From positions 1,690,666-1,754,665 of the forward strand of contig KV440964.1 in assembly GCA_001636495.1 (NCBI GenBank): DNA of 64,000 bases, read 5' to 3'. The notes below the pieces were generated by a model. That model worked only from the letters and a program-made list of their open reading frames with translations. It made no database searches and had not been told where the DNA came from. The position numbers and the translations under genes are program-made. The first letter of the stretch is position 1. Each line of letters opens with the position of its first letter. This DNA is from Sutcliffiella horikoshii. Lineage in GTDB: Bacteria > Bacillota > Bacilli > Bacillales > Bacillaceae_I. Shown here piece after piece: positions 472-59,185 of this stretch.

Positions 472-608
472 CCCTCTGTTGTTTGAAGTGCAGGGTATGA
501 GACTCCGGAGGGAGGTAGCGGTAGGTTGAGACCCCTAAAGCGTTGTGAGGAGGCTCAAGCATCGCCCCTCGGAAAGCGAATACCCGGAACGGAAATCAAC
601 AGAGAATT
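472..608 (+). repeat. Structured intergenic element, copy 1 (CTGTT-ended type)
   Basis: This belongs to the dispersed element family of the window. Its ends pair as CTCTGTTG/CAACAGAG. The second helix is GGGTAT/ATACCC, then GCGGT/ATCGC with one G-U pair, then TTGAG/CTCAA around a purine-rich loop. It lies between the lcfA terminator and the fadR promoter and has no T-tract, so it is not itself a terminator. Confidence 0.8.
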
Positions 609-669
609 TACCAGAAAACTAACCTATAAATAATTAGTTACTGGTACGGAAATTATGATAAGATAATGA

Positions 670-698
670 TTGACAGTTCATTCATGGTGCAGTATCAT
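670..698 (+). promoter_or_regulatory. Sigma-A promoter of fadR operon
   Basis: A perfect -35 TTGACA is separated by 17 bp from TATCAT. The predicted start is near 705, immediately before the FadR operator, so a bound repressor would block initiation. Confidence 0.7.
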
Positions 699-705
699 GA
701 AAATA

Positions 706-723
706 TGAATGATTATTCATTCA
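706..723 (+). promoter_or_regulatory. FadR operator
   Basis: TGAATGATTATTCATTCA is an inverted repeat matching the known FadR box of Bacillus (TGAATGA, 4-nt centre, TCATTCA). It covers the predicted transcription start of fadR. This implies negative autoregulation of the fadR-fadB-etfBA unit, relieved by long-chain acyl-CoA in the known system. Confidence 0.85.
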
Positions 724-746
724 TTTTCCAAAAAGGAGCGAATAGG

Positions 747-1334
747 TTGAAACAACAAAAACCTAAATACAAACAAATAATAGATGCTGCAGTTATTGTC
801 ATAGCAGAAAACGGCTACCATCAAGCGCAAGTTTCCAAAATCGCTAAACAAGCAGGCGTAGCAGACGGTACCATTTATTTATACTTTAAAAATAAAGAAG
901 ACATCCTCATTTCTCTTTTTCAAGAAAAAATGGGATTCTTCATTGAAAAGATTCGTCAAGAAATTGCAGGAAAATCGACATCAACAGAGAAATTATTAAC
1001 GTTGATAGAAAAACACTTCTCGTTGCTTGCTGCTGATCACCATCTTGCCATCGTAACGCAATTGGAATTAAGGCAATCCAATTTAGAACTTCGTTTGAAG
1101 ATTAACGAAGTGTTAAAAGGGTATTTACATGTTGTGGATGAAATTCTGGTGGCGGGTACAAAGAACGGCGAGCTACGTTCAGACTTGGATGTCCGTCTTG
1201 CAAGACAAATGGTGTTCGGTACGATTGATGAAACGATCACCACTTGGGTCATGAATGACCAAAAATATGATCTCACATCGATTGCACCAAGAGTACATGA
1301 TCTATTGATCAGAGGGTTTGGAGCTACACCTTAA
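747..1334 (+). CDS. fadR: Fatty acid degradation regulator FadR (TetR family)
   Basis: A 195-residue TetR-family repressor close to B. subtilis FadR (YsiA), which represses beta-oxidation genes and is released by long-chain acyl-CoAs. The N-terminal helix-turn-helix spans roughly residues 8-54, with recognition segment GVADGTIYLYFKNKEDIL. The rest is the helical ligand-binding domain, including LAIVTQLELRQSNLELR. I chose the TTG at 747 because AAAAGGAG sits eight bases upstream and it gives the family's usual N-terminus (MKQQKPKYKQIID). An upstream in-frame ATG at 666 would place the promoter and operator inside the coding region and is rejected. It heads fadB, etfB and etfA. Confidence 0.93.
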   Translation: MKQQKPKYKQIIDAAVIVIAENGYHQAQVSKIAKQAGVADGTIYLYFKNKEDILISLFQEKMGFFIEKIRQEIAGKSTSTEKLLTLIEKHFSLLAADHHLAIVTQLELRQSNLELRLKINEVLKGYLHVVDEILVAGTKNGELRSDLDVRLARQMVFGTIDETITTWVMNDQKYDLTSIAPRVHDLLIRGFGATP

Positions 1335-1368
1335 GTAGCTCTATGCTTTACATAAGGAGGGATTAATA

Positions 1369-2142
1369 ATGGAATTCTTGCAAATGAAAGTAGAAGATCG
1401 AATTGCAGTCATCACCATCAACAAAGCCCCGGCAAATGCTTTATCATCCGCAGTTTTGAAAGAGCTTTCATCGTTGATGGATGACCTAGAAAACCAAGAA
1501 GATGTAAGGGTGGTCCTTCTTCATGGAGAAGGAAGATTCTTCTCGGCAGGTGCTGATATTAAAGAATTTACCACGGTGGAAACAGGTGAAGAGTTTGCGA
1601 AGCTTGCAAAGTTCGGCCAAGACCTTTTTGAAAGAATGGAGAATTTCCCGAAACCGATTATCGCAGCCATCCACGGTGCTGCATTAGGCGGTGGCCTTGA
1701 ACTTGCTATGGGCTGCCATATCCGCTTGGTGACAAAAACCGCAAAGCTTGGTTTGCCTGAATTGCAATTAGGACTGATTCCAGGATTCGCTGGGACGCAG
1801 CGCTTACCTAAACTCGTTGGTTCTGCCAAGGCGTTTGAAATGCTCTTCACCAGCGATACATTAACAGGAGAAGAAGCTGTTCAATGGGGACTTGCGAATA
1901 AGGCCGTCGATGAAGAAGCATTAATGGAAGAAGCTTTGAAGATGGCGAAAAAGATTGCACAAAAAGGACCAATATCCGTTGCTTCTGTTATTGAATTATC
2001 CCGATACACAAAGCATGAAGAATTTTATCAAGGGGTAGACAGAGAAGCACAATTATTCGGTAAAGTCTTCACGTCCGAAGATGGCAAAGAAGGTATTACT
2101 GCGTTTATGGAAAAAAGAGCTCCCGAATTTAAAGGGAAGTAA
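1369..2142 (+). CDS. fadB: Enoyl-CoA hydratase FadB
   Basis: A 257-residue crotonase-fold protein that hydrates trans-2-enoyl-CoA in the second step of cytosolic beta-oxidation. The oxyanion-hole regions are visible as SAGADIKEF (59-67) and HGAALGGGLELA (102-113). The two catalytic glutamates fall at E111 (GGGLE) and E131 (LPELQLGLIPG). The start has a strong AAGGAGG eight bases upstream. It lies 34 bp after fadR and 65 bp before etfB, so one transcript under FadR control is likely. I see no terminator after it. Confidence 0.93.
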   Translation: MEFLQMKVEDRIAVITINKAPANALSSAVLKELSSLMDDLENQEDVRVVLLHGEGRFFSAGADIKEFTTVETGEEFAKLAKFGQDLFERMENFPKPIIAAIHGAALGGGLELAMGCHIRLVTKTAKLGLPELQLGLIPGFAGTQRLPKLVGSAKAFEMLFTSDTLTGEEAVQWGLANKAVDEEALMEEALKMAKKIAQKGPISVASVIELSRYTKHEEFYQGVDREAQLFGKVFTSEDGKEGITAFMEKRAPEFKGK

Positions 2143-2207
2143 ATTTTTTTATAATATAAAATCTGAATATTACTAATAAAAATAATGTTTAAACAGGAGG
2201 TACTGTG

Positions 2208-2981
2208 ATGAATATTTTTGTTTTATTAAAAAGAACATTTGATACGGAGGAAAGACTAACGGTTTCAAATGGCAGCATAAATGAAGATGGTGCAGAATTC
2301 ATTATCAACCCGTACGATGAGTATGCAGTAGAGGAAGCAATCCAAGTAAGAGACTCGCATGGCGGAGAAGTGACAGTCGTGACAGTCGGAACCGAAGAGG
2401 CAGAAAAAGAGCTTCGCACGGCACTTGCGATGGGTGCTGACAAAGCGGTATTGATCAACACGGAAGATGACGTGGAAAATGGAGACCAATTTACAACAGC
2501 AAAAATCTTGGCTGAGTTCCTGAAAGACAAAGATGCTGACTTGATCATTGGCGGTAACGTAGCAATTGACGGTGGTTCCGGACAAGTTGGACCTCGTGTA
2601 GCAGAATTATTAGATATTCCTTACGTGACAACCATCACAAAGCTAGACATTGAAGGCGGAAAAGCTACAATCGTGCGTGATGTTGAAGGGGATTCCGAAG
2701 TCATTGAAACATCCCTTCCATTGCTTGTAACAGCACAACAAGGTTTGAACGACCCGCGCTATCCATCTCTTCCAGGAATCATGAAGGCAAAGAAAAAGCC
2801 TCTTGAAGAACTAGAATTAGATGATTTAGATCTAGATGAGGACGATGTAGAAGCGAAAACCAAAACGTTGGAGATCTATCTTCCACCGAAAAAAGAAGCT
2901 GGACGTGTGCTTCAAGGGGAGTTAGACGCCCAAGTAAAAGAATTGGTTACCGCATTAAGAAACGAAGCGAAAGTAATCTAA
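2208..2981 (+). CDS. etfB: Electron transfer flavoprotein beta subunit
   Basis: A 257-residue EtfB. With EtfA it carries electrons from acyl-CoA dehydrogenases towards the quinone pool. Recognisable segments are MNIFVLLKRTFDTEE, INPYDEYAVEEAI, the AMP-binding region VAIDGGSGQVGPRVAELL and the signature GLNDPRYPSLPGIMKAKKKP. I prefer ATG 2208 over the adjacent GTG 2205 because of the family N-terminus. The ribosome binding site is AGGAGG at 2196-2201. It is followed not directly by etfA but by a structured repeat of about 140 bp inserted between the two cotranscribed subunits. Confidence 0.93.
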   Translation: MNIFVLLKRTFDTEERLTVSNGSINEDGAEFIINPYDEYAVEEAIQVRDSHGGEVTVVTVGTEEAEKELRTALAMGADKAVLINTEDDVENGDQFTTAKILAEFLKDKDADLIIGGNVAIDGGSGQVGPRVAELLDIPYVTTITKLDIEGGKATIVRDVEGDSEVIETSLPLLVTAQQGLNDPRYPSLPGIMKAKKKPLEELELDDLDLDEDDVEAKTKTLEIYLPPKKEAGRVLQGELDAQVKELVTALRNEAKVI

Positions 2982-2996
2982 ACATCATATAAACAT

Positions 2997-3138
2997 CTAG
3001 CGTTTGATTGGAGCAGATGGCGTAGACTCCGGCGGGAGGTAGCGCTTAGGTGAGACCCCGCAGGAGGCCTGAGGAGGTTCACCAAGTGCCCCGCGGAAAG
3101 CGAAGCCAGATGCGGAAATCAAAAAGCGTCGTTAAGAA
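2997..3138 (+). repeat. Structured intergenic element, copy 2 (between etfB and etfA)
   Basis: Its second helix is GCAGATGGC against GCCAGATGC, with two central mismatches. The third is GCGCTT/AAGTGC with one G-U, and the fourth GGTGA/TCACC. These differ from other copies but keep pairing. It lies between two genes of one operon and so should be transcribed. Confidence 0.8.
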
Positions 3139-3176
3139 GACTTTATAGATAGATACATGGACAGGAGGAGACAAAC

Positions 3177-4154
3177 ATGGCAAGAAAAGTATTAACGTTA
3201 GCAGAAGTACGTGATTCCGCATTACGTAATGTATCGTTTGAGGCAATTGCAGCCGGAAAAACAGTAGCAGAAGGTGGCGAAGTAGTTACTGTACTAGTAG
3301 GGGAAGGTGTAGGTTCACTTGCACAAGAATTGATCGCTTACGGTGCAGACCGCGTCATTACAGTGGAACACGCAAACTTGAAAGCGTACACATCTGACGG
3401 ATACTCCCAAGCATTAATGGCAGTAATCGATTCCGAAAAGCCAGAAGGTATTATTTTCGGTCACACAGCATTAGGGAAGGATCTATCTCCTAAATTGGCT
3501 TCCAAGCTGAACTCCGGTTTAATTTCCGATGCAACGGAAGTGGAAGAGGTTGGCGGAAACCTTGTATTCACAAGACCAATCTATTCTGGTAAAGCATTTG
3601 AAAAGAAAATCGTAACGGACGGCGTTATTTTTGCAACAGTTCGTCCAAACAACATTGCATCTCTTGAAAAAGACGAGGCACGCGCAGGTGATGTAACTTC
3701 CCTTGACGTCGATGTGAAAGATCTTCGCACGATCATAAAAGAAGTCGTTCGCAAAGCTACAGAAGGTGTAGACCTTTCTGAGGCAAAAGTAGTGGTAGCT
3801 GGTGGCCGTGGAGTAAAATCTACAGACGGCTTCGAGCCATTAAAAGAGTTAGCAGACGTACTTAGTGCTGCAGTGGGTGCTTCCCGTGGAGCGTGTGATG
3901 CAGACTATTGCGATTACTCTTTACAGATCGGCCAAACAGGTAAAGTAGTAACACCTGACCTTTACATTGCATGCGGTATCTCCGGAGCGATTCAGCATCT
4001 AGCTGGTATGTCCAACTCCAAAGTAATCGTTGCAATCAATAAAGATCCAGAAGCAAATATCTTTAAAGTGGCTGACTACGGTATCGTCGGTGACCTATTT
4101 GAAGTAGTACCAATGTTAACAGCTGAATTTAAAAAGCTGTTAGTAACGAACTAA
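3177..4154 (+). CDS. etfA: Electron transfer flavoprotein alpha subunit
   Basis: A 325-residue EtfA, the FAD-carrying partner of EtfB. The N-terminal half has the alpha/beta fold segment IIFGHTALGKDLSPKLASKL. The C-terminal FAD-binding domain (about residues 200-300) shows VVAGGRGVKS, GASRGACDADYCDYSLQIGQ, then GISGAIQHLAGM and a terminal NKDPEANIFKVADYGIVGDL. The start has GGAGGAG eight bases upstream. A strong terminator follows, ending the fadR-fadB-etfBA unit. Confidence 0.95.
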   Translation: MARKVLTLAEVRDSALRNVSFEAIAAGKTVAEGGEVVTVLVGEGVGSLAQELIAYGADRVITVEHANLKAYTSDGYSQALMAVIDSEKPEGIIFGHTALGKDLSPKLASKLNSGLISDATEVEEVGGNLVFTRPIYSGKAFEKKIVTDGVIFATVRPNNIASLEKDEARAGDVTSLDVDVKDLRTIIKEVVRKATEGVDLSEAKVVVAGGRGVKSTDGFEPLKELADVLSAAVGASRGACDADYCDYSLQIGQTGKVVTPDLYIACGISGAIQHLAGMSNSKVIVAINKDPEANIFKVADYGIVGDLFEVVPMLTAEFKKLLVTN

Positions 4155-4164
4155 GGTATCCTTG

Positions 4165-4201
4165 AAAACAGCCAGGCACTTAGGGGTGCTTGGCTGTTTT
4201 T
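4165..4201 (+). terminator. Terminator of etfA operon
   Basis: AACAGCCAGGCAC pairs with GTGCTTGGCTGTT around a short loop and is followed by TTTTA. Confidence 0.85.
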
Positions 4202-4229
4202 ATGTGATGGATTGAATAAAGGATAACTT

Positions 4230-4367
4230 AGCTGGTGATTGGAGCAAAAGGCGAAGACTCCAGCGGGGGAGTAGCGACAATGTTGAGACCCCGCAACGAA
4301 GTGAGGAGGCTCAAGGTCGCCCCGCGGAAAGCGAAGCCGTTTGCGGAAATCACCAGCGGTGTACAGA
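4230..4367 (+). repeat. Structured intergenic element, copy 3 (AGCTG-ended type)
   Basis: The ends pair perfectly as GCTGGTGATT/AATCACCAGC. The second helix is GCAAAAGGC/GCCGTTTGC with one mismatch, the third GCGAC/GTCGC and the fourth TTGAG/CTCAA. It lies between the etfA terminator and trxA. Confidence 0.82.
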
Positions 4368-4556
4368 GGGACACAAGCATGAAATAAAATGGACAAAAAC
4401 GGGTAAACCTATACTGAAGCAAATAATTAGCAACACTATGTGGTAAATGCTATACTTTACCTATACTAAATCTCTGAAAGATTTTCCAACTGTCAGAGAA
4501 CACATTAACAGCATATATTGTTAACTGTGAGATAAAAGGCTTAGGAGGAATTTATT

Positions 4557-4871
4557 ATGGCAATTACAAATGCAACTGACCAAAACTTTACACAAGAAAC
4601 TAGCGACGGTCTAGTTCTTGCTGATTTCTGGGCACCATGGTGCGGACCTTGTAAAATGATCGCTCCTGTTCTTGAAGAATTAGATCAAGACATGGGTGAC
4701 AAAGTGAAAATCGTAAAAGTTGATGTGGATGAGAACCAAGAAACTGCTGGAAAATTCGGCGTTATGAGCATCCCGACTTTACTTGTTATCAAAAACGGTG
4801 AAGTAGTAGACAAAGCAGTAGGTTTCCAACCGAAAGAAGCTTTGGCTGAACTATTAAACAAGCACGCTTAA
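4557..4871 (+). CDS. trxA: Thioredoxin
   Basis: A 104-residue cytosolic thioredoxin, the standard family length. It reduces protein disulfides using electrons from thioredoxin reductase. The redox site is WCGPC at residues 28-32, and the cis-proline is Pro73 in SIPT. The start has AGGAGG nine bases upstream. It is a single-gene unit: a terminator follows directly. Two TATACT hexamers at 4451 and 4462 lie in the upstream spacer but have no good -35, so I do not assign a promoter. Confidence 0.97.
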   Translation: MAITNATDQNFTQETSDGLVLADFWAPWCGPCKMIAPVLEELDQDMGDKVKIVKVDVDENQETAGKFGVMSIPTLLVIKNGEVVDKAVGFQPKEALAELLNKHA

Positions 4872-4883
4872 TCCAATTTGTAG

Positions 4884-4911
4884 AAGCCCGGTCCTGTGAC
4901 CGGGCTTTTTG
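4884..4911 (+). terminator. Terminator of trxA
   Basis: AAGCCCGGTC pairs with GACCGGGCTT across CTGT and is followed by TTTTT. Confidence 0.9.
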
Positions 4912-4948
4912 CATGTCTAAGGTTAGAAAAAGAACTTGGCTAAGTACT

Positions 4949-5088
4949 TATATCAATAATATCTTGGATATATCAATAATTTTAGGCATATATCAATAAA
5001 AAATAGAATATATCAATAATTTTTAGGATATATCAACAAAAAATAAAATATATCAGTAATTTTCAAGATATATCAGTAATTCACCACA
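4949..5088 (+). repeat. Tandem array of seven 20-bp units
   Basis: Seven units of exactly 20 bp begin at 4949, 4969, 4989, 5009, 5029, 5049 and 5069. Each starts TATATCA followed by ATAA, ACAA or GTAA, and then has a variable AT-rich second half. There are no unique spacers and no dyad, so this is not CRISPR. It fills the trxA-uvrC spacer. Confidence 0.9.
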
Positions 5089-5216
5089 TCAATATTCCTC
5101 TCCGTGTCCTTTATAACTCCAATCATACCCATCCCTCAAACTTCCAAATGGAACATACGTACGAAACAAGGTATAATAAGATCATACGAAAAATCTTGGG
5201 TTGGGAGGAAGAACCA

Positions 5217-6989
5217 TTGAATGAATCATTAAAAGAGAAGCTCGCCATACTTCCCGACCAACCGGGATGTTATTTGATGAAGGATCGACAAGGAACCATC
5301 ATCTATGTCGGAAAGGCGAAGGTGCTAAAAAATCGCGTCCGCTCCTATTTTACTGGAAGCCATGACGGCAAAACACTAAGGCTTGTCAATGAAATTGTGG
5401 ACTTTGAATATATAGTAACCTCATCAAATATTGAAGCACTGATACTTGAACTGAATCTTATAAAAAAACACAATCCTAAATACAATGTCATGTTGAAAGA
5501 TGACAAGCGTTACCCTTTTATCAAAATTACAGCGGAGAAGCATCCGCGTCTATTAATTACCCGCAAAGTACAAAAGGATAAAGGAAAGTACTTTGGACCT
5601 TATCCGAATGTTCAAGCGGCTAATGAAACAAAAAAGCTACTCGACCGAATATATCCCCTAAGAAAATGTATGACACTGCCTGATCGTGTCTGTCTTTACT
5701 ACCACATGGGACAATGTCTGGCTCCTTGTGTTGAGCATGTGCCGGATGAGACGAATAAAGAAATGGTGGATGGGATTGTCCGGTTTTTGAACGGTGGCTA
5801 TAAAGAAGTCAAAAGTGAGCTTACCGAAAAAATGATGAAAGCATCAGAGAATCTGGAGTTTGAACGGGCACAGGAATTCCGGGACCAAATCATCAATATC
5901 GAAGCGACAATGGAAAAGCAAAAGATGGAGATGAATGACTTTGTCGACCGGGATGTATTTGGATATTCCTTTGACAAGGGGTGGATGTGTGTGCAGGTCT
6001 TTTTTATCCGTCAGGGTAAATTGATTGAACGTGATGTTTCCTTGTTCCCTATCTACAATGAACCAGAAGAGGATTTCCTTACGTTCCTCGGCCAGTTCTA
6101 TTCCAAGCAAAACCACTTTGTACCAAAGGAAGTCATGCTTCCAAGTCAAATCGACCTACCGGTTGCGCAAGAGCTTCTTCAAACCAATGTGCTTCAGCCG
6201 CAACGCGGGAAAAAGAAGCAGCTGGTGGACCTTGCCAATAAGAATGCAAAAGTTGCGCTTGGAGAAAAATTCTCATTAATTGAACGGGATGAGAGCAGAA
6301 CCATCAAAGCGGTCGAAAATCTTGGCAAAATCCTTGGCATCATGACCCCGCACCGTATCGAAGCCTTTGATAACTCTAATATCCAAGGGACAGATCCGGT
6401 TTCTGCCATGGTCGTGTTTATTGATGGGAAACCGGAGAAGAGGGAGTATCGAAAATATAAGACTAAAAGTGTCCAAGGACCTGATGACTATGAATCCATG
6501 AGGGAAGTTGTAAGAAGAAGGTACACGCGTGTACTGAAGGAATCCCTACCATTACCAGATCTGATAGTCATTGATGGTGCCAAGGGACATATGAGCGCAG
6601 TACGGGATGTTCTTGAAAATGAGCTGGACTTATTTGTTCCGATCGTCGGACTTGCCAAAGATGACAAACATAGAACTAGCAACCTTCTTGCTGGGGAGGA
6701 TGCGATGATTGTACCACTCGAAAGGACAAGCCAAGAGTTCTATCTGCTTCAACGGATACAGGATGAGGTGCATCGATTCGCCATTACCTTCCACCGCCAG
6801 ATCAGAAGCAAGAGTGTGTTCCAGTCTATACTCGATGAAATTACCGGAGTCGGTGCAACAAGGAAAAAAGCATTGATGAAACACTTCGGATCTGTGGCAA
6901 AGATGAAAGAAGCCACGGTGGAAGAAATCCAAGCTGCGAAAATTCCAAAACCGATAGCTGAAGAAATTTTTAAAAAACTTCGTGAATAG
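5217..6989 (+). CDS. uvrC: UvrABC system protein C
   Basis: The nuclease subunit of bacterial nucleotide excision repair, 590 residues. The N-terminal GIY-YIG domain that makes the 3' incision spans about residues 15-95 ([28 protein letters not shown]). A conserved cysteine cluster follows ([21 protein letters not shown]), then the UVR motif that contacts UvrB ([15 protein letters not shown]), the RNase H-like 5'-incision domain ([18 protein letters not shown]) and C-terminal helix-hairpin-helix repeats ([17 protein letters not shown]). The TTG at 5217 has GGGAGG eight bases upstream and gives the family N-terminus. An upstream in-frame ATG at 5148 has no ribosome binding site and precedes a TATAAT at 5171, a possible promoter element. 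Confidence 0.93.
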
Positions 6990-6992
6990 GTG

Positions 6993-7021
6993 TTGTAACG
7001 ATTCTTATTGTCTGATATAAT
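6993..7021 (+). promoter_or_regulatory. Sigma-A promoter of lysC leader
   Basis: TTGTAA is separated by 17 bp from TATAAT, which is also preceded by TG at the extended -10 position. It lies immediately upstream of the lysine riboswitch. Confidence 0.75.
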
Positions 7022-7054: not shown

Positions 7055-7252
7055 GATGAAGTGATGATAGAGGTGCGAACTTCAAAAGTATGTAATCGGA
7101 GAAGAAAGAGCTTCCGAGATGATTACGGAAAGGGGAGGATCGCCGAAGTAAAAAAAAGTCTCTTTTTCTTTTTTTTACTGGTTCTGCGTTTAAGAAATGT
7201 AGGACTGTCAGGTTGTCTTTGTGCTGCCTGGAGAGCTATCTCACCGCGTGAA
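7055..7252 (+). ncRNA. Lysine riboswitch (L-box) upstream of lysC
   Basis: The conserved L-box core is present in order: GATAGAGGTGCGAAC at 7067, AGTATG near 7088, GGAAAGGGGAGGATCGCCGA around 7129-7149, GGACTGTCAGG near 7202, and the closing TGGAGAGCTATCTC around 7229. These match the known lysine aptamer of Bacillus lysC leaders, including the strand that closes P1. An intrinsic terminator at 7275 forms the expression platform. Lysine binding is expected to favour termination and lower aspartokinase II synthesis. An open frame at 7040-7330 overlaps this RNA and is not a gene. Confidence 0.93.
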
Positions 7253-7274
7253 CGGATTCTTTATTTGACCAATC

Positions 7275-7310
7275 ACAGCAATGAGACATTAGCTCATTGC
7301 TGTTTTTTTT
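7275..7310 (+). terminator. Riboswitch-controlled terminator of lysC leader
   Basis: ACAGCAATGAG pairs with CTCATTGCTGT and is followed by eight T residues. It is the off-state structure of the lysine riboswitch. Confidence 0.88.
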
Positions 7311-7392
7311 ATATCCTCAAAAGGCTGTAAGGCTAAATGCGTACTGAGAGCTATCTAACATTATGATGAGACTACAAATTCTGTAAATACTT

Positions 7393-7443
7393 AGCTGTTG
7401 ATCGAAGCCCTGGGCGGAAATCAACTGCGTCGTTAAACAGAAC
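7393..7443 (+). repeat. Internally deleted remnant of the structured element (copy 4)
   Basis: The sequence has the element's 5' end (AGCTGTTGAT) joined directly to its 3' part (CGAAGCC, GGGCGGAAATCAACTGCG, then CGTTAAACAGA). About 90 bp of core are missing. It lies between the riboswitch terminator and lysC. Confidence 0.7.
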
Positions 7444-7469
7444 TAATCAATGAAAAGGGAATGGTGCAC

Positions 7470-8771: not shown

Positions 8772-8843
8772 CTTAAGTAAAGAGTGCGCGAGTGCAATGA
8801 CCACCGTTACATGCCAAAGCAGGCAACATACTTTCCGTTAATG

Positions 8844-8944
8844 AAAAATACGAGCTGTTATACAAATATATGAGCAGTTAAACAAAAATACGAGCTGTTA
8901 CACAAATATATGAGCAGTTAAACCAAAAATACGAGCCGTTCGAC
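8844..8944 (+). repeat. Tandem array of five 20-21 bp units
   Basis: Units start at 8844, 8864, 8884, 8904 and 8924. The consensus alternates between AAAAATACGAGCTGTTACAC and AAATATATGAGCAGTTAAAC. The common core is GAGCNGTT. The sequence differs from the array before uvrC but the period is the same. It lies between converging lysC and yslB. Confidence 0.85.
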
Positions 8945-8999
8945 AAAAAACCGCAATATCCCCCTCCTGAGTCCCCCCTTCCCCCAAAAACAATTCCAC

Positions 9000-13178: not shown

Positions 13179-13212
13179 CAAAAGCTCATGTTAGAAAATT
13201 CAGAATGATTTA

Positions 13213-13346
13213 AACCACCGTTGATTTCCGTTCCAGGCGCTTCGCTTTTCTGCGGGCGGTCCGGGAGCCTCCTCGGCAAGCCAGCGGGGTCACCCCTGTC
13301 CCTTCCTCCCGCGGAAGTCTGCGCGCCTTCCACTCCAATCAACTAA
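13213..13346 (-). repeat. Structured intergenic element, copy 5 (inverted)
   Basis: Read on the minus strand it begins AGTTGATTGGAGTGG and ends GGAAATCAACGGTGG. The second helix is AGGCGC/GCGCCT, and a GGG/CCC helix replaces CTTGAG/CTCAAG. It faces copy 6 head to head, 46 bp away. Confidence 0.8.
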
Positions 13347-15937: not shown

Positions 15938-15979
15938 TTTGGCTTTGTTAAAGTTAGTTGTTAATTATGACCTGTTTCT

Positions 15980-16123
15980 AGCTGGTGATTGGAGCAAAAG
16001 GCGAAGACTCCAGCGGGGGAGTAGCGACAATCTTGAGACCCGCAAGTGTTGCGAGGAGGCTCAAGGTCGCCCCGCGGAAAGCGAAGCCTATTGAGGAAAT
16101 CAACAGCGACGTTTAACAGAGCT
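15980..16123 (+). repeat. Structured intergenic element, copy 7 (AGCTG-ended type)
   Basis: It begins GCTGGTGATT and ends AATCAACAGC. The third helix is GCGAC/GTCGC and the fourth CTTGAG/CTCAAG. The second helix (AGGC/GCCT) is weaker than in copy 3. It lies between the racE terminator and gerM. Confidence 0.8.
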
Positions 16124-19418: not shown

Positions 19419-19466
19419 AAATCTTGTCGCTGATGATAATTAGTAAATATTTCTTATCAGAGAATA

Positions 19467-19518
19467 CATAGCAAGCCTTTATTCTCATAATCTCCCAGTA
19501 GCTCAGCTGGATAGAGCA
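19467..19518 (+). pseudogene. 5' fragment of tRNA-Arg (partial duplication)
   Basis: The 52 bases from CATAGCAAGCCTTTA to the D-arm end GGATAGAGCA repeat, with a few changes, the leader and 5' part of the intact tRNA-Arg 151 bp downstream. The fragment stops before the anticodon stem. The first base of the acceptor (G in the intact gene) is C, and no anticodon or T-arm follows. It is a tRNA remnant, not a functional gene. Confidence 0.8.
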
Positions 19519-19595: not shown

Positions 19596-19642
19596 GACGA
19601 CGGTAGTACAGATTAACCATAGCAAGCCTTTACTTTTATATT

Positions 19643-19719
<77 letters not shown>

Positions 19720-33560: not shown

Positions 33561-33696
33561 CCCCCCTGTTTTCTGGAGTGCAAGGTGTGAGACTCCTAAG
33601 GGAGATAGCGGTAGCTTGAGACCCCACAGCGAAGCGAGGAGGCTCAAGCACCGCCCCTAGGAAAGCGAACACCTGGAACGCAAGAAAACAGGGAGT
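33561..33696 (+). repeat. Structured intergenic element, copy 8 (CTGTT-ended type)
   Basis: The ends pair as CCCTGTTTTCT/AGAAAACAGGG, a double-sided change from copy 6 (CCCTGTTGACT/AGTCAACAGGG). The second helix is AGGTGT/ACACCT and the fourth CTTGAG/CTCAAG. It lies between converging genes. Confidence 0.85.
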
Positions 33697-33721
33697 TAAG
33701 TGTTAAAACATAGGTGTACAA

Positions 33722-47049: not shown

Positions 47050-47288
47050 ATAAGATAACGATCAAATACAGTGACAGGGAAGAGTACAATGCCTGGCTCC
47101 TTTAGAGAGGGAAACCATCAGCTGAAAGGTTTCTCAGGATAGTCGGATTGGAAGGTCGCCCTCGAGTAGTTTCAGCGAACGCGTTATGTTCAGTAGTTGA
47201 AACCGGTGGAGAGCCGTTAACAGATTTGAGTGTACAGGGAAAAGTCTATCTTTTTCACCCTGTAAAAAAAGGTGGTACCGCGAAACTT
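47050..47288 (+). ncRNA. T-box leader (valine) of valS
   Basis: A tRNA-sensing leader. The conserved blocks are in order: GGGAAGAGTA (47078), AGAGAGGGAAACC (47104) with GCTGAAAGGTTTC, the specifier region GGAAGGTCG with codon GTC for valine at 47155-47157, and the antiterminator T-box AGGTGGTACCGCG near 47269-47282. Uncharged tRNA-Val binding would stabilise the antiterminator and allow valS transcription. An overlapping short open frame (47148-47351) is not a gene. Confidence 0.93.
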
Positions 47289-47331
47289 AACTCCTTTCGT
47301 CCTTTTATTTGGATGAAGGGAGTTTTTTATT
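47288..47331 (+). terminator. T-box-controlled terminator of valS leader
   Basis: AACTCCTTTCGTCC pairs with GGATGAAGGGAGTT (with G-U and mismatch) across TTTTATTT and is followed by six T. It competes with the antiterminator. Confidence 0.88.
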
Positions 47332-47349
47332 TTGGTTTTGGAGTTCCAT

Positions 47350-47493
47350 AGCTGGTGATTGGAGCGAAAGGCGAAGACTCCGGCGGGAGGTAGCGGTAGA
47401 CTTGAGACCCCGCAGGCGGAGCCGAGGAGGCTCAAGCACCGCCCCGCGGAAAGCGAAGCCTGGCGCGGAAATCAACAGCGGTGGTAAGCAGAA
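47350..47493 (+). repeat. Structured intergenic element, copy 10 (in valS leader)
   Basis: It begins GCTGGTGATT and ends AATCAACAGC. Internal helices are AGGC/GCCT, GCGGT/ACCGC and CTTGAG/CTCAAG. It lies between the T-box terminator and the valS ribosome binding site, so it is part of the valS mRNA. Confidence 0.83.
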
Positions 47494-47525
47494 CCGTTTT
47501 TTAAAAGAGAACAGGAGGAATTAGG

Positions 47526-51892: not shown

Positions 51893-52027
51893 GCGCCGCT
51901 GTAGATTTCCGCACTGGGCTTCGCTTTCCGCGGGGCGGTGCTTGAGCCTCCTCACTTCGTTGCGGGGTCTCAAGTCTACCGCTACCTCCCGCCGGAGTCT
52001 TCGCCCTGTGCTCCAATCTACAGCTAG
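51893..52027 (-). repeat. Structured intergenic element, copy 11 (inverted)
   Basis: Read on the minus strand the ends pair as GCTGTAGATT/AATCTACAGC. The second helix is CACAGGGC/GCCCAGTG with one central mismatch, then GCGGT/ACCGC and CTTGAG/CTCAAG. It lies between the second ATP-grasp gene and the Mur-ligase-like gene. Confidence 0.86.
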
Positions 52028-53799: not shown

Positions 53800-53901
53800 G
53801 GTAAAGCCCTCGTTTTCTATGATAAAGTTTGCTATAACAATAATAATGAGTAACATCCATTATTTTACCTAAGGAATTGTCGATTGAAAAGGAGTTGCAA
53901 T

Positions 53902-55197
53902 ATGTTTACATCATTTAAAGAGCTTCAAAAGCATCTAAATTTTACGATGAAAAGCGAAATAAGCCTGGGGTTGGAGCGGATGACCCATTTTTTGGCGAAG
54001 GTCGGTAACCCTCAGGATCAAATAAAAATAGTGCACATTGGGGGGACGAACGGAAAGGGCTCCACCTTGCGATTTTTGGAAAGTGTACTGAACGAGATGG
54101 GGAATAGGGTTGGTACTTTTCATTCCCCTGCCTATCAATATATAAATGACCAGGTTTCAGTAGACGGAGAGTACATATCAGATAAAGAAATGGTGGAGAT
54201 GATAGAGCTTTTTAAAGAGAAGGGGCTAGAAGAGGCAGGGTTGACTGAGTTTGAACTGCAGACTGCCATGGCATTTTATTATTTTGCCTGCGTGAAGAAG
54301 GTGGATTTTGCACTGATTGAGGTGGGGCTTGGCGGAAGAGAGGATTCTACAAATGTCATGAAACCGGTCCTTTCCATCATTACCAATGTGGGATATGACC
54401 ATATCGGCTTCTTAGGGACAACTATAAAGGAAATCGCCTATCAGAAAGCGGGGATCATTAAAAAGGGGATTCCGGTTATCAGTGGAGAACAAAAGGTGCA
54501 AGCCAAAGAAGTTATTAAGGCCGAAGCGGAAACTACCAATAGTCCTATCAGTTTTATTGGAGAGGATTTTTCTTATACCATTTTTCAAACAGAACAGGTA
54601 GGAGAGGCGTTTACTTTTCATGCCGGAGAAAAATCGATAGAAGATTTAAGGATTTCGATGCAAGGAGAGCATCAGGTGGCTAACGCTGCCCTTGCGATTC
54701 AGGCCGTCCTCACATTGACGGAGTTGGGATTAGTTGAATATGAGGAAAAGCGGCTAAGGGCGGGGCTAATGAAAGCGATCCACCCAGGGAGATTTGAAGT
54801 GATTAGCAACAGTCCGTTGATAATAATGGATGGGGCGCATAATGAAGAGGCAATGGATGCGCTGGTGCGTTCTGTCGAAAGAAGGTATTCAACTAGGAGA
54901 ATAATCGTTGTTTTCAGTGGGTTAAAAGATAAGCCGTTGGATTCTATGGTAAAGAAGTTGGAAAAGTTGGCATCTGAAATTATTTTTACCTCTTTTCATT
55001 TCCCTCGGGCAGCTTTGGCAGAAGATATTTTTCTAAGGAGTCATCACGAGAAAAAACGGTTCGAGGAGGACTGGAAAATAGCAATGAATGCTGCTGTATC
55101 AAGGCTGGACGATGATTCTATGTTGCTTGTTACAGGGTCCCTTTATTTCATTTCCGAAACTAGGTCTTATCTCACACGAAGGATCGAAAACATATAA
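53902..55197 (+). CDS. folC: Folylpolyglutamate synthase/dihydrofolate synthase
   Basis: A 431-residue enzyme that adds glutamate to folates and probably to dihydropteroate. The P-loop is VHIGGTNGKGSTLRFL, followed by TFHSPAYQYINDQVSVDGEY. The signature TEFELQTAMAFYYF with GLGGREDSTNVM matches B. subtilis FolC, as do MDGAHNEEAMDALV, VFSGLKDKPLDSMVKKLE and the end VTGSLYFISETRSYL. ATG 53902 follows AAAGGAG. It follows valS in B. subtilis; here about 3.6 kb of minus-strand genes and repeats separate the two. Confidence 0.93.
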   Translation: MFTSFKELQKHLNFTMKSEISLGLERMTHFLAKVGNPQDQIKIVHIGGTNGKGSTLRFLESVLNEMGNRVGTFHSPAYQYINDQVSVDGEYISDKEMVEMIELFKEKGLEEAGLTEFELQTAMAFYYFACVKKVDFALIEVGLGGREDSTNVMKPVLSIITNVGYDHIGFLGTTIKEIAYQKAGIIKKGIPVISGEQKVQAKEVIKAEAETTNSPISFIGEDFSYTIFQTEQVGEAFTFHAGEKSIEDLRISMQGEHQVANAALAIQAVLTLTELGLVEYEEKRLRAGLMKAIHPGRFEVISNSPLIIMDGAHNEEAMDALVRSVERRYSTRRIIVVFSGLKDKPLDSMVKKLEKLASEIIFTSFHFPRAALAEDIFLRSHHEKKRFEEDWKIAMNAAVSRLDDDSMLLVTGSLYFISETRSYLTRRIENI

Positions 55198-55301
55198 GGG
55201 ATAATTATCCTATTTTTGTTGTGACAAATGTTAGAAAATTTGATAATATTTAATTATTGCAAAAGTACGTCGAAAAATGGATATAGAAGGGAGGGGTTAG
55301 T

Positions 55302-57038
55302 TTGGTAGCTCAGGCAGTGAATCGCCAAAAGGAAATGGTGATATGGACAAGCTTTGTTGTATTGGTCCCCATCTTTTTATGGCTAGGATATCAGCTTTCT
55401 CCGGTTGTTTTGGAAGAATTGCCACTCTGGCACGTTGTTGGATTTATAGCTTTGGCAATTATTCTTGCCCTGATTCCGATAGTGGTAGGAGAGGTACCGC
55501 TATTTCTTGCACAGGGCGTTTCGCTGGCAGCCCTTCTATCCTTTGGTCTATTCATTGAGATGATTGTGACACTCATCTCGGTTCTTGCCTTGATGGTCTA
55601 TATGCGTATGAACCGACAGAACTTAGTGCGCATCCCCATCAATGTGCTCATGTTTTCAAGCATATCATTGGTAGCCGGTTTTGTTTTTTATGCTTTGGGT
55701 GGAACACCTGGAGATACGAGATTATGGAATATCGGCGTTATCACACCGATCCTTGCGCATGAATTAGTTTATTTCACCCTTAATACAGTGTATCTGTATG
55801 TTATACAGGTATCTATTTATGAGCGGAAAAGTAAATTCATCACTCCGGATACGAAGTGGGATGCTGTTACAAGCATCATGGTCCTGCCGGTGGGTCTAAT
55901 CCTCTACACCCTCTATGAGCAAGTAGGAGCGGTTGCCTTGTTATATGTCGGGTTGCCGTTCGTCATCTTAACCTTGATTCTTCAACTCTATCATGCTAGT
56001 CAAAAGGTCAATGTTCACCTCCAACAAGCAGCAGATGTCGGTCATCAGTTAACCGAAAGACTTGATACAAAAGGGGTATTGGATGTTTTCCTTGAGAAAA
56101 TATCCACGCTCTTCAAGGTAGATTATGCAGCAATTATTGATGTGAACGGGGAAAAGATCATGAAGGTGCTCCGTGTGATGGATAAGGAAAACAGTGTCGA
56201 GGCCGATACGATCCTTCTTACAGACGAAGAAGAATTATTGGCCTATGTACTAAAACGGGGAAAAAGCGTCTGCTATTTCACGAAAAAAGAATGGAAACAT
56301 ATTTCAAAAACACATCTTCCCGCTTCCATGCAAAGTGTGATGTGCGTTCCGGTCATCCGAAATCATAAAATTGAAGGGCTGGTACTTTTGGCAAGCTCCT
56401 CCAAGCGGACATACGATAAGTCCCAATTGATGATTGTCGATATTCTTTGCTCCTATTTTGGGGTGGCGATGGAAAAAGCACGTCACTATCAGGAAACCAA
56501 ACGAAAGAGCGAACGCTGTGCACTTACTAAACTGTATAATTACCGCTTTTTCGAAAGTGTCCTTGATAATGAGTATGATAAACTGAACAATGGACAATCC
56601 AAATCGCTATCTCTCATCATGCTGGACCTTGATCATTTCAAAAAGATCAATGATGTGTACGGTCATCAAAGTGGAAATGAGATTCTTATGCAGGTCGCAG
56701 ATCGACTCACAGCACTTGTAGGAAACAAAGGGACGGTTGCAAGGTATGGGGGAGAAGAATTCGTCATTTTGCTCCCTAATATAGAGCGAGGACAATGCTT
56801 TGAACTGGCAGAGCGCATCCGTGTTCACCTTGCCACAAGGTCATTCCCGCTCAAACAGCACATCCGTGATTCCCAAGGTGCACAGCTTGTAAAAGTCACA
56901 GCGAGCATCGGTTTCGCAACTGCACCGGACGATGCGGAAGATACACTTGACCTAATCCGCCATGCGGACCGAGCGATGTATGTGGGGGCGAAACAGGCTG
57001 GCAGGAATAAGGTTGCCGAGTATCGGAAGACTTCATAA
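55302..57038 (+). CDS. Membrane GAF-GGDEF diguanylate cyclase
   Basis: A 578-residue protein. The N-terminal 240 residues carry about seven or eight transmembrane helices (for example WTSFVVLVPIFLWLGYQLS, VVGFIALAIILALIPIVVG). Residues about 260-400 form a GAF domain (VLDVFLEKISTLFKVDYAAI). The C-terminal GGDEF domain has LIMLDLDHFKKINDVYGHQS and active site YGGEEF at 482-487, so it should make cyclic di-GMP. The start is TTG with GGGAGGGG upstream. The GGDEF domain looks active; what the sensor region detects is unknown. It lies near type IV pilus genes, a common c-di-GMP target. Confidence 0.9.
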   Translation: MVAQAVNRQKEMVIWTSFVVLVPIFLWLGYQLSPVVLEELPLWHVVGFIALAIILALIPIVVGEVPLFLAQGVSLAALLSFGLFIEMIVTLISVLALMVYMRMNRQNLVRIPINVLMFSSISLVAGFVFYALGGTPGDTRLWNIGVITPILAHELVYFTLNTVYLYVIQVSIYERKSKFITPDTKWDAVTSIMVLPVGLILYTLYEQVGAVALLYVGLPFVILTLILQLYHASQKVNVHLQQAADVGHQLTERLDTKGVLDVFLEKISTLFKVDYAAIIDVNGEKIMKVLRVMDKENSVEADTILLTDEEELLAYVLKRGKSVCYFTKKEWKHISKTHLPASMQSVMCVPVIRNHKIEGLVLLASSSKRTYDKSQLMIVDILCSYFGVAMEKARHYQETKRKSERCALTKLYNYRFFESVLDNEYDKLNNGQSKSLSLIMLDLDHFKKINDVYGHQSGNEILMQVADRLTALVGNKGTVARYGGEEFVILLPNIERGQCFELAERIRVHLATRSFPLKQHIRDSQGAQLVKVTASIGFATAPDDAEDTLDLIRHADRAMYVGAKQAGRNKVAEYRKTS

Positions 57039-57045
57039 TGGAAAT

Positions 57046-57082
57046 AGAAAACTCCCGTCTAAGGTGGCGGGAGTTTTTGTTG
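57046..57082. terminator. Terminator after the GGDEF gene
   Basis: AAAACTCCCG pairs with CGGGAGTTTT around TCTAAGGTGG and is followed by T-rich sequence. It lies between converging genes and may serve both. Confidence 0.85.
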
Positions 57083-57085
57083 TTT

Positions 57086-58237
57086 TTAATTAGTCCAATT
57101 CCAAAGCGCCACATCGTCAATGTGAATGGAGTCGGCCCAGTCTTCCTCTTTCAATGCAAGGATCTCCTTTGACGGGCCGGTAATCACTACCCCATAGTGT
57201 TTGATCCCGTTGTTTTCGAGGAAATCTATTTGTTCATGCAATTTCATCATTCCGGATTGGCGAAGTCTCATATACTCATCTTCGTGTTCCTCAAGGAATT
57301 GAAGTGTTTTCATAAATTGTTTGTGAAGCATGTCGACATCTCCGTTTTCATAGGACATTGCCGAGTGTGTTGTTTCAACAACTTGTGACCCGAACAAGGT
57401 ACGTTCTTCTACTTTAGATTCTAACTTCCAATCGTCAGTATGAAGTATTGGATTATTCGGGAACCCAATCGGTTCTTCTAATGAGAATCCATCTGCGTCC
57501 AAGTCTTCTTTGGAGTAAACATCAACAGGGAACCATAAGATATCTAAATCTCTATTTTCAAATCGTTCAAAAACCTCTTGTGTGGAAACCAGTTTATCAA
57601 AGGAGAGAAAAGCTGTAGCTACAGTTCCTTCCGGTAACATTTCCAATCGGTCCCACTCTGCAGGTGTATGAATTGCGTATTGATAGTGCGAATTTGGATG
57701 GTTAAATTTTAGTTGATAATCCTCCTCTACTTCATTGAAATTTCTTACCTCGGGGAAACCCATTTTAGAAAATAAAAAATTAACTTTCATCTCTCCAACT
57801 GTGTACACTTCCTTACCAACAATCCTTTTAAGGTCCTTTGTAACATCCATTGTAAAGAAGGTCCCAATTTCCCGATTGTTTGTTCTTCCAATACCATACG
57901 GGTCTGTAATCAATGTTCCATAATCGATAATATTACTTAGTTTTTGAGCGCGGTTTTCTTCGTTTTCTTCACTAGAAAAACCGTAATAATATAAATTAGT
58001 GGCAAACGAGGAGATGATAAGTGCAAGCAGAAGAAATGCCAATGCACTGAAAGCGGTCCCGATCCGCGCCTTCCACTTGCTTGCCCGCAATATCTTCCGT
58101 TGCTTGTTTTTGTCCAGGCCAGGCTTCATCCACTGTTTTTCCTTGGCATCCATTTCTTTTTCAAACTCTATCTTTTCATCGGGTGTCATTTCTCCTCTAT
58201 CGTACAGTTCCAGTTTTTCTTTAAAGTCATCATTCAT
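57086..58237 (-). CDS. Anti-sigma factor with Sigma_reg N and C regions
   Basis: A 383-residue single-pass membrane protein encoded directly after an ECF-type sigma factor. The cytoplasmic N-terminus (about 60 residues, DRGEMTPDEKIEFEKEMDAK) is followed by one transmembrane helix (AFSALAFLLLALIISSFATN). A long extracytoplasmic domain follows. Arrangement fits the sigma factor regulator family of Bacillus, in which the N-terminus holds the sigma factor until a signal arrives. The start has AAAGGAG ten bases upstream and overlaps the end of the sigma gene by eight bases. The signal is not deducible. Confidence 0.85.
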   Translation of the reverse strand: MNDDFKEKLELYDRGEMTPDEKIEFEKEMDAKEKQWMKPGLDKNKQRKILRASKWKARIGTAFSALAFLLLALIISSFATNLYYYGFSSEENEENRAQKLSNIIDYGTLITDPYGIGRTNNREIGTFFTMDVTKDLKRIVGKEVYTVGEMKVNFLFSKMGFPEVRNFNEVEEDYQLKFNHPNSHYQYAIHTPAEWDRLEMLPEGTVATAFLSFDKLVSTQEVFERFENRDLDILWFPVDVYSKEDLDADGFSLEEPIGFPNNPILHTDDWKLESKVEERTLFGSQVVETTHSAMSYENGDVDMLHKQFMKTLQFLEEHEDEYMRLRQSGMMKLHEQIDFLENNGIKHYGVVITGPSKEILALKEEDWADSIHIDDVALWNWTN

Positions 58238-58736
58238 TCTTTTCGTTCTCCTTTCCTTGGATGAGTCTTACTTTTTGTCGGGCGCGGTAGAGAAGAACCT
58301 TAAAGTACGTATCTGTTACGCCAATGGCATCTGCCGCTTCCTTATAGGTGAAGCTATGGTAATCATATAAAAGAATGGCTTGCGCCTGCTGCTCGTTCAG
58401 ACTGTTGATCACTTCCATGACCTCGGCCACCTCTGATTTTAGAAGCACTTCTTGTTCGGTCCCGTGTCCCTTTCCAAAAAGGCGTTGAAAGAAGCCTTGC
58501 TCCTTCACCACGGTCCGCTTGTGCTTCCGGTAATGGTCAATAAACGCGTTGTGGGCAATCCGGAACAGCCAAGGCTTCACGTCTTCACCCTTGTAATTCT
58601 CCACATATAAATACGCACGCAGAAATGTTTCTTGTACGAGATCTTCCGCAAGATGATGCTCCCTGCATAAAGAAAGGAGGTACCGGAAAATATCCTGCAT
58701 ATGCTCTTGGTAAATATCATCAATGGACTGTCTCAT
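58230..58736 (-). CDS. ECF-type RNA polymerase sigma factor
   Basis: A 168-residue sigma-70 family factor with regions 2 and 4 only. Region 2 includes MQDIFRYLLSLCREHHLAED, then LVQETFLRAYLYVENY and KPWLFRIAHNAFIDHYRKHK. Region 4 includes VINSLNEQQAQAILLYDYHS and YKEAADAIGVTDTYFKVLLY. It resembles the SigM/SigX group but cannot be named exactly. It is coupled to its anti-sigma gene by an eight-base overlap. An ECF-like promoter on the same strand lies 23 bp upstream of the start, suggesting positive autoregulation. Confidence 0.9.
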   Translation of the reverse strand: MRQSIDDIYQEHMQDIFRYLLSLCREHHLAEDLVQETFLRAYLYVENYKGEDVKPWLFRIAHNAFIDHYRKHKRTVVKEQGFFQRLFGKGHGTEQEVLLKSEVAEVMEVINSLNEQQAQAILLYDYHSFTYKEAADAIGVTDTYFKVLLYRARQKVRLIQGKENEKNE

Positions 58737-58758
58737 CTGGCCCCCCTTTCACAACACT

Positions 58759-58784
58759 AACGTCCGAAATATGGAAATGTTTCA
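58759..58784 (-). promoter_or_regulatory. ECF-type autoregulatory promoter
   Basis: Read on the minus strand, TGAAAC is separated by 16 bp from CGTT. This is the classic ECF promoter form in Bacillus and directly precedes the sigma gene. Confidence 0.65.
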
Positions 58785-58818
58785 AGGAAATGAAAAAATT
58801 ATTAATAGTAAAGAAATT

Positions 58819-58893
58819 CTCCCCTGTTGACTGGAGAGCAAGGTGTGAGACTCCGGAGGGAGATAGCGGTAGCTTGAGACCCCCGCAATGAAG
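58819..58893 (+). repeat. Structured element copy 12, left half
   Basis: This is the left half of a CTGTT-ended element (CCCCTGTTGACTGG, then AGGTGT, CTCCGGAGGGAG and CTTGAG). It ends in the octamer CAATGAAG at 58886, where the 219 bp insertion begins. Joined to 59121-59185 it reconstitutes a complete element. Confidence 0.85.
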
Positions 58894-59112
58894 GAGGCCG
58901 CTGAAAAACCTAGTAACTTATCTTTTTTATGTTTCTAGCTGTTGATTGGAGCAATAGGCGTAGACTCCAGCGGGGGATAGCGACAATCTTGAGACCCCGC
59001 AGGGCGTAGCCCGAGGAGGCTCAAGGTCGCCCCGCGGAAAGCGAAGCCGTTTGCGGAAATCAACAGCGGTGTTAATCAGGTTATTTAAGTTCGTTACTTT
59101 TCCAGTGGCCAC
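58894..59112. mobile_element. 219-bp MITE-like insertion with 8-bp target duplication
   Basis: The segment is flanked on both sides by CAATGAAG (58886-58893 and 59113-59120). Its ends are imperfect inverted repeats: GGCCGCTGAAAAAC then GTAAC on the left, and on the right (reverse complement) GGCCACTGGAAAA then GTAAC. It encodes no protein, so it would depend on a transposase elsewhere. It carries a complete structured element (58937-59080). Family not assigned. Confidence 0.75.
58937..59080 (+). repeat. Structured intergenic element, copy 13 (inside the insertion)
   Basis: The ends pair perfectly as GCTGTTGATT/AATCAACAGC. The third helix is GCGAC/GTCGC and the fourth CTTGAG/CTCAAG. The second is GCAATAGGC/GCCGTTTGC, partly mismatched. 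Confidence 0.85.
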
Positions 59113-59185
59113 CAATGAAGTGAGGAGGCTCAAGCACCGCCCCTCGGAAAGCGAACACCTGAAACGAAAGGAAACAGGGAGTTTA
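59113..59185 (+). repeat. Structured element copy 12, right half
   Basis: It starts with the duplicated CAATGAAG and continues with CTCAAGCACCGCCCC, ACACCT and GGAAACAGGG, the 3' half of the interrupted element. The remaining spacer to 59364 shows no further feature. Confidence 0.85.

Follow-up and report, generated by a model that had tools for sequence, protein, structure and literature searches.

The 64,000-nucleotide stretch of Sutcliffiella horikoshii analyzed here (contig KV440964.1, positions 1,690,666 to 1,754,665; hereafter the window) contains 13 copies of an intergenic repeat whose core is an imperfect palindrome of about 135 bp, folding as one continuous rod with conserved, purine-rich internal loops. 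We propose that this rod forms the core of a non-autonomous transposon family (miniature inverted-repeat transposable elements, MITEs) of the Bacillales with at least two kinds of ends, that an insertion sequence (IS) of the IS1182 family carries the rod, and that the rod hairpin is the target of these elements; to this explanation as a whole we assign a probability of about 0.7. At the level of sequence comparison, the mobility, the two kinds of ends, the target duplications, the carrier IS, the nesting of elements and the preference for rod tips are all established. A preliminary description of the window, made from the sequence alone, knew of no named element of this form, and our search of the literature by words and sequence strings (few subscription journals covered) likewise found no description of this MITE-type family with its strongly paired hairpin and its link to a transposon of the IS1182 branch.

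Orthologous 64-kb regions were compared in five genomes of the same genus (G001, G007, G012, G013, and G015), and filled and empty rod sites were found between orthologous spacers. The rods are mobile, since a spacer that has a rod in one genome can lack it at the corresponding place of others. The first class of units (A type) has GGYTCTGTT ends and AT-rich duplications of 8 bp, which are perfect in five of the nine short units (L043, L045, L057, L136, and window positions 15941-16123) and not perfect in the other four (L031, L034, and two in L144). The second class (GAGGCC type) has GAGGCCACTGAAAAA ends, common to an IS1182-family IS, and duplications of 8-9 bp, found in 33 of the 39 raw end pairs at a threshold of at least 60%. 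The MITE units are 144-222 bp long, encode no transposase, and have a core with at least 150 matches in their own genome; with terminal inverted repeats (GGYTCTGTT or GAGGCC), duplications and short, many-copy units, they have the hallmarks of MITEs. The duplications differ or are unclear at four further sites (L069:4669, L074:10673, L076:14265, and L073:8130), so that other ends or decay have to be considered. Exact GAGGCC ends occur 14 times in the own genome; by coordinates, each is no more than about 45 bp away from a rod match, and because two of them share one unit, they make 13 units. Among the 101 genomes of the order, 31 have these ends. An autonomous partner with the same ends was found for the GAGGCC type only (L148-L152 and L154). 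As candidates for an autonomous IS with A-type ends, pairs of GGYTCTGTT 700-2600 bp apart were rejected, their contents looking like ordinary genes from the starts of their open reading frames (ORFs), and the plain GGYTCTGTT pattern in 61 genomes gave no close pair, by eye, among the matches listed.

Where two GAGGCC-type ends are separated by 1.7-1.9 kb, in G013, G012, and G005, they bound IS1182-family IS with intact transposases. Five copies of 1864 bp in G013 and one copy of 1875 bp in G012 carry a rod. The carrier transposases of 484 and 485 aa reach 358.9 bits (L148) and 355.6 bits (L154) with the NCBIfam model of IS1182 (cut-off 270); the rod-less L153 scores 363.1 bits and the remaining G013 copies 358.6 bits, with no stops. 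The rod of the G013 and G012 copies is antisense to the transposase gene and separates the start of that gene from the IS end close to it. The IS of G005 has no rod inside; it occupies the loop of a terminator-like hairpin. In a tree of 21 transposases, the rod-carrying ones of G013 and G012 group as sisters (support 1.0) and separately from rod-less relatives, which fits a single putative capture of the rod. Rods inside other IS1182 groups were looked for in 30 loci (L168-L197) and rejected: an internal rod is present in the GAGGCC loci L184 and L185 only, while L183 has the same GAGGCC-type ends and no rod, and the rod matches of L186, L194, and L197 lie outside the IS.

All six rod-carrying IS copies lie in the apical loop of another rod, flanked by duplications of 8-9 bp. 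When distinct targets are counted, 17 of the 23 targets of rod-carrying elements are rod tips, against one of the 17 targets of rod-less elements (Fisher p 1.8e-5). This table of 40 targets contains duplications of at least 75%, which drops L082, L083, L089, L092, and one in L155 among others, and merges sites identical over 15+15 letters, for which reason L149 is not counted separately; some of the terminal inverted repeat pairs in L073, L168, L199, and L200 may be chance. A2 and A5 each contain at least one antisense re-reading. Rod tips account for 19 of the 39 raw end pairs, and 16 of these 19 show a clear duplication. The rod-carrying IS taken alone have rod tips as five out of five target sequences. 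In the own genome, the rule of our script places four out of nine two-ended GAGGCC MITEs in rod tips (a fifth, L082, is in an apparently damaged rod); on the basis that 270 whole rods would fill about 0.9% of the genome, this has a p of 8e-7. Rod-less IS1182-type elements of other genomes target a second palindromic repeat, GGGAC..GGGACCTGTCCC..GTCCC and variants (L156, L158, L179, L182, L311, and L317).

We suggest that the transposase recognizes the rod hairpin, either as a cruciform or as single-stranded DNA, and that the carried rod would give each new insertion one more harmless landing site. The hairpin may be retained because it is useful as a target or during transposition. Rods with other ends would have been spread by another transposase, which is assumed here and was not found. 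That the IS carries its own landing pad, the hairpin in transposon and MITEs being the favored target and its pairing kept as a DNA target and not as RNA, we regard as an even call.

Covariance model R1, a kind of model that the preliminary description had suggested, was built from 35 own-genome copies and has at least 150 matches in the own genome. R1 matches occur in 77 of the 101 genomes (own included) and in 49 of 64 genera of the order. An 18-letter core was scanned for in named genomes, and the matches listed include Sutcliffiella, Fictibacillus, Neobacillus, Mesobacillus, Peribacillus, Priestia, Sediminibacillus, and several species of Bacillus. Eight plasmid records match (three of Priestia, three of Peribacillus, one of Niallia, and one of Bacillus badius); the phage collection contains no match to the rod model.

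In the window, R1 identifies 11 full copies, all with E values of at most 3.8e-23; these copies are all among the 35 used for the model, and their scores are thus not independent evidence. The R1 listing has 16 rows, three of which are antisense re-readings of listed copies. Together with one deleted copy (E 0.001) and one copy split by an insertion, the total of 13 agrees with the approximately 13 intergenic copies of the preliminary description, whose start points match those of R1 to within a few bases. The right half of the split copy (59073-59183) has an E value of 0.5 and is alone not significant, while its left half is visible as a direct repeat at 58818-58883. The copies and associated features are as follows (A, B, and C are our type labels, P1 is the helix of the paired ends, and scores are those of R1).

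472..608, plus strand: full rod copy, B type (P1 CCCTCTG/CAGAG), 125.8 bits
2997..3132, plus strand: full rod copy, 126.3 bits
4228..4362, plus strand: full rod copy, A type, 139.3 bits
7391..7433, plus strand: A-type copy with an internal deletion, preceded by a lysine riboswitch and followed by a 416-aa ORF, 22.4 bits
13212..13346, minus strand: full rod copy, C type, 95.7 bits
13394..13530, plus strand: full rod copy, B type, 135.8 bits
15941..16123, plus strand: A-type MITE with ends GGCTTTGTTAAAG / TTTAACAGAGCT, 8-bp flanking duplication TTTATTTT and rod at 15978-16112
33562..33697, plus strand: full rod copy, B type (P1 CCTGTTTTCT/AGAAAACAGG), 128.8 bits
45049..45189, plus strand: full rod copy, C type, 99.0 bits
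47334..47495, plus strand: A-type MITE with rod at 47348-47484 and ends GGTTTTGG / CAGAACC (ends by eye), 153.4 bits
51893..52027, minus strand: full rod copy, A type, 155.4 bits
58820..59184, plus strand: B-type rod, its tip split by the element 58894-59112
58886..58893, no strand: left copy of the 8-bp target duplication CAATGAAG
58894..59112, plus strand: GAGGCC-type (IS1182-type) MITE of 219 bp with rod at 58935-59072 (142.0 bits) and ends GAGGCCGCTGAAAAA / TTTTCCAGTGGCCAC
59113..59120, no strand: right copy of the 8-bp target duplication CAATGAAG

The 219-bp unit (ends GAGGCC...GGCCAC) is the example within the window of an insertion into the loop of an outer rod; it is missing in all five compared genomes, and G001, G007, G013, and G015 have an unsplit rod there. 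The tip of the G013 counterpart of rod 4228..4362 is split by a GAGGCC MITE. The orthologous spacers of all five genomes contain no copy matching 472..608 or 51893..52027, and the site of the deleted copy 7391..7433 is empty in G001, G012, and G013. Rod 2997..3132 has orthologues in four of the five genomes (none in G007), and rod 33562..33697 has counterparts in all five, the one in G012 being a chimera (L071:1331). The G012 spacer matching 15941..16123 is without such a MITE unit. The MITE 47334..47495, which has no clear duplication, is filled in G007, G012, and G015 and empty in G001 and G013. Rod 13212..13346 is the only window copy in a tandem spacer that is oriented against its genes. 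Two copies are located behind leader elements: a T-box leader (47062-47307) is followed by the A-type MITE and an 882-aa ORF (start 47526), so that the MITE lies between leader and start codon, and the lysine riboswitch (7060-7246) is followed by the deleted rod and the 416-aa ORF (window 7060-7461). By coordinates alone, a rod also lies about 54-78 bp downstream of four of the 13 SAM riboswitches of the genome.

RNAalifold predicts 38 pairs for the 35 own-genome copies, 20 of them with kept two-sided changes. In an alignment of 66 own-genome rows, which was fitted to the model and thereby favors pairing figures, 95.4% of 2463 pair cells are paired and 27 of the 38 pairs have two-sided changes. 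The number of cells with such changes is 281, against a mean of 77 in shuffles, and none out of 500 shuffles reaches any of five pairing measures. Sliding the partners by one to three columns lowers the paired cells to 39-47%, and the five single copies tried all fold 3.9 to 6.6 standard deviations below shuffles. The compensatory changes reported in the preliminary description are thus real, and its long-range helices P1, P2, P4, and P5 are borne out by the pairing and the two-sided changes of the alignment; P1 has new sequences on both arms from copy to copy. Its local CTCC...GGAG hairpin finds no support. The CTCC letters are almost invariant among copies, and GCGGG pairs far downstream with compensatory changes, in a long-range helix (TCC.GCGGG/CCCGC.GGA) with 96.7% of cells paired and one pair that is C-G in 47, A-U in nine, and U-A in two rows. 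Moreover, in 18 distinct sequences (by eye) an insert directly follows CTCC and would split such a hairpin. This insert is optional and contains a hairpin of its own (GAAAATGCTA.CGCATTTTC); it stands directly after CTCC in 18 out of 19 distinct occurrences from several genera and is 57 bp long in one case measured against the window; its sites include L065 11244 + 2064, L074 10741, L100 7632, L107 15783, L219 4531, L226 5493, and L240 1484.

At eight shared loci, divergence between copies amounts to 0-13.6% at paired positions and 8.5-21.4% at unpaired ones (means over all pairs of a locus), while 4-fold sites of nearby genes diverge by 37-47% (window versus each relative). The rods are therefore either constrained or homogenized, and neutral decay of relics does not predict these values; gene conversion between copies could account for the low divergence. 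Among in-place changes (1803 comparisons), 127 one-sided changes break and 38 keep the pair, and 57 two-sided changes keep and 21 break it. The kept two-sided changes are concentrated by locus (22 at 33562, 11 at 4228, and 10 at 58818), and many two-sided changes are in loci that resemble block exchange. Chimeric rods were observed at the shared loci L071:1331 and L061:10856, pointing to recombination or gene conversion.

Several points weigh against our explanation. The GAGGCC ends are found on about 13 units versus at least 150 copies, and the link to IS1182 thus covers a minority of the mobility. No autonomous partner for A-type ends was found among the loci and patterns searched, and the B- and C-type ends are not settled as terminal inverted repeats. 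The 127 pair-breaking changes versus 57 kept two-sided ones mean that constraint at each resident copy is not tight, and this count does not show tight in-place selection. The preference of rod-less IS for hairpins is modest. The 17 rod-tip targets come from five genomes of one genus (seven from G013, four from G012, two of these being contigs of equal origin, three from the own genome, two from G011, and one from G007). The supply of rods differs by genome and the IS copies of G013 are identical, and the counts of 17/23 and 1/17 do not represent independent lineages. Finally, L021, L083, L084, and L092 of the own genome are outside rod tips.

The pairing itself admits other readings. The rod might act as RNA (as a leader, trailer or intercistronic element that regulates or stabilizes mRNA), with pairing selected on the transcript and mobility as the mode of spread only, which we judge unlikely. 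In tandem spacers within 464 kb of the own genome, 38 copies are oriented along transcription and eight against it (p 9e-6; the others of the 65 copies are eight convergent, five divergent, two overlapping an ORF, and four at edges), although the 20 own-genome stretches (400 kb) were picked around known copies; orthologous places in the five same-genus genomes, which are not independent, give 23 versus four. The conserved internal loops and the copy between T-box and 882-aa ORF are also in line with an RNA. However, the strand count falls to 12:5 around copies in 20 genomes (six of the same genus) and to 22:18 in 80 named loci (11 titled Sutcliffiella). The bias weakens in wider samples and is not a general feature of the family; the latter count lends no support to a universal bias. 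Landing behind terminator T-runs was rejected as its source, since T-runs are upstream of 17 and A-runs of 18 of the 39 co-oriented copies (the rule of this count yields 39 co-oriented and nine opposed copies, versus 38 and eight above), and since 74 of 121 rod-free tandem spacers have a T-run. The preliminary description was right that this is not a family of Rho-independent terminators, as the common 3' ends CAGCGGYGTTTAACAGA and CAGGGAGTT bear no T-run (by eye). When pairing is selected in a transcript, G-U is expected to outnumber A-C, its opposite-strand mirror, by a wide margin. G-U does exceed A-C over 224 distinct rows (165 versus 108, p 0.0007; 26 versus 18 in own-genome rows), but in a control of SAM riboswitches (the 11 out of 13 detected in the same genome, 282 cells only) the numbers are 13 versus one, so that the G-U:A-C ratio is 1.5 for the rod versus 13 for the control and the G-U share of cells 2.0% versus 4.6%. 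By our own estimate, one-sided changes keep the pair no more often than by chance (38 of 165). The pairs mostly change from one Watson-Crick state to another, G-U intermediates are few, and the sense strand is slightly favored. The evidence on pairing thus leans to DNA rather than RNA, and an RNA function of the rod is weakly supported. Of the earlier proposal of selection on RNA or folded single-stranded DNA, the covariation holds and the DNA side is favored, without a separate local hairpin. Few G-U intermediates, with G-U not far above A-C, would also result when two-sided changes arise without selection, by arm-to-arm copying in single-stranded DNA (template switching, mismatch repair) or by gene conversion between copies, and the chimeras, the block replacements (L071:1331 and L061:10856) and the clustering of kept changes by locus agree with this. 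Such an origin is somewhat less improbable than an RNA function but still rather unlikely, because the internal-loop columns remain unpaired and conserved beside changing helices, whereas arm copying should pair them, and because new P1 sequence on both arms is not easily supplied by conversion between copies.

The alternative that we take most seriously, doubtful as it is, accepts an ordinary MITE family in which rods are targeted as abundant stable hairpins and the IS carries a rod by accident. IS1272, of the same IS1182 family, is known for hairpin targets (PMC4923244, as far as the available part of that account goes), and a predicted loop contains nine out of 13 target sequences of rod-less IS, compared with 31% of random places in the same loci (933 of 3000; p 0.005). 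On the other hand, rod-less elements in the rod-bearing genomes G005, G009, G016, G017, and G045 (eight IS and two MITEs) have a rod tip as target in none out of 10 cases, and the sole rod-less element in a rod tip is a 151-bp MITE in G057. It is very improbable that the rod belongs to a family already catalogued, e.g., bcr1-bcr3 (Bacillus cereus group) or Bhal-1 (B. halodurans). In the accessible portions of the respective sources, bcr1-bcr3 are characterized as MITE-like (PMC3446304), bcr1 has a similar size of 147 bp (Table 3 in PMC2267715), and Bhal-1 is a structured intergenic repeat of 74 bp (PMC2267715). None of the eight plasmid records with a rod match is from the B. cereus group, however, and Bhal-1 has about half the size of the rod; both families were set apart by description. 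A search of Rfam 15, which the preliminary description had also suggested, gave no family at gathering score with the whole window and none at E values up to 10 with one copy. In size, the core of about 135 bp does not fit the palindromic unit of a REP/RAYT (TnpA-REP) system, which has 20-40 bp (PMC3733652, in the part available).

Other repeats were seen in and around the window. A second, unrelated MITE-like family with the ends GGCTCTTTTCGTAAACTTTGTTGC / GAAAAGAGCC is present at L076 17637-17828, L074 17381-17591, and L073 953-1139, the same sites being empty in a sister genome. An insert of 112-118 bp, flanked by 32-35 bp repeats of one tRNA gene end, was found at L066 14010-14128, L070 5066-5178, and L078 13309-13427, present in some genomes of the genus and absent in others; the window contains a similar duplicated tRNA start (19458-19518 and 19609-19669). 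The window also has tandem arrays at 4949-5080, 8837-8949, and 60954-61147; 20-bp units alternate in those of two spacers, and a 506-aa ORF contains a repeat of 12/24-bp units.

Covariation is usually read as proving that an RNA is functional. The strongly covarying family described here is instead linked with DNA transposons and with insertion into its own tip, and with matches in 49 of 64 genera, such repeats could pass for RNAs in many genomes. The strand-mirror comparison of G-U with A-C separates the rod family from a riboswitch. If the landing-pad reading is true, it would represent a way for a transposon to spare its host while creating new targets, and would offer a natural system to study how a transposase recognizes a hairpin.

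The closest known system is IS1272/TnSha1 of staphylococci, reported to target hairpins, terminators included (Furi et al., 2016; PMC4923244). It shares with the carrier IS the IS1182 family (for the carrier by NCBIfam model) and the hairpin targets. Yet IS1272 reportedly makes no target duplication and deletes part of the stem, whereas the carrier IS has duplications of 8-9 bp and inserts in the apical loop; a carried target hairpin is not mentioned in the available part of the IS1272 account. REP sequences are targets of IS1397, ISKpn1, IS621, and ISPsy8 (Tobes and Pareja, 2006; PMC1525189) and are likewise abundant intergenic palindromes used as preferred insertion sites. The rod, in contrast to REPs of 20-40 bp, has about 135 bp and is present inside an IS and its MITEs; in the accessible part of that account an IS carrying its REP target is not described, nor did we find in the literature searched any IS said to carry the hairpin that it targets. 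Bhal-1 (PMC2267715) resembles the rod as a structured intergenic repeat of a bacillus, but differs in size (74 bp versus about 135 bp; compared by description only). MITEs in general, e.g., QMITE2 of Coxiella (PMC10969869), are likewise short, gene-less and intergenic, with inverted-repeat ends, duplications of 7-9 bp and a foldable transcript, and bcr1-bcr3 of B. cereus (PMC3446304) resemble the rod as MITE-type repeats. From these MITEs, as far as the available parts of their accounts describe them, the rod differs by a covarying internal hairpin with fixed internal loops, which is common to units with differing ends and to an autonomous IS.

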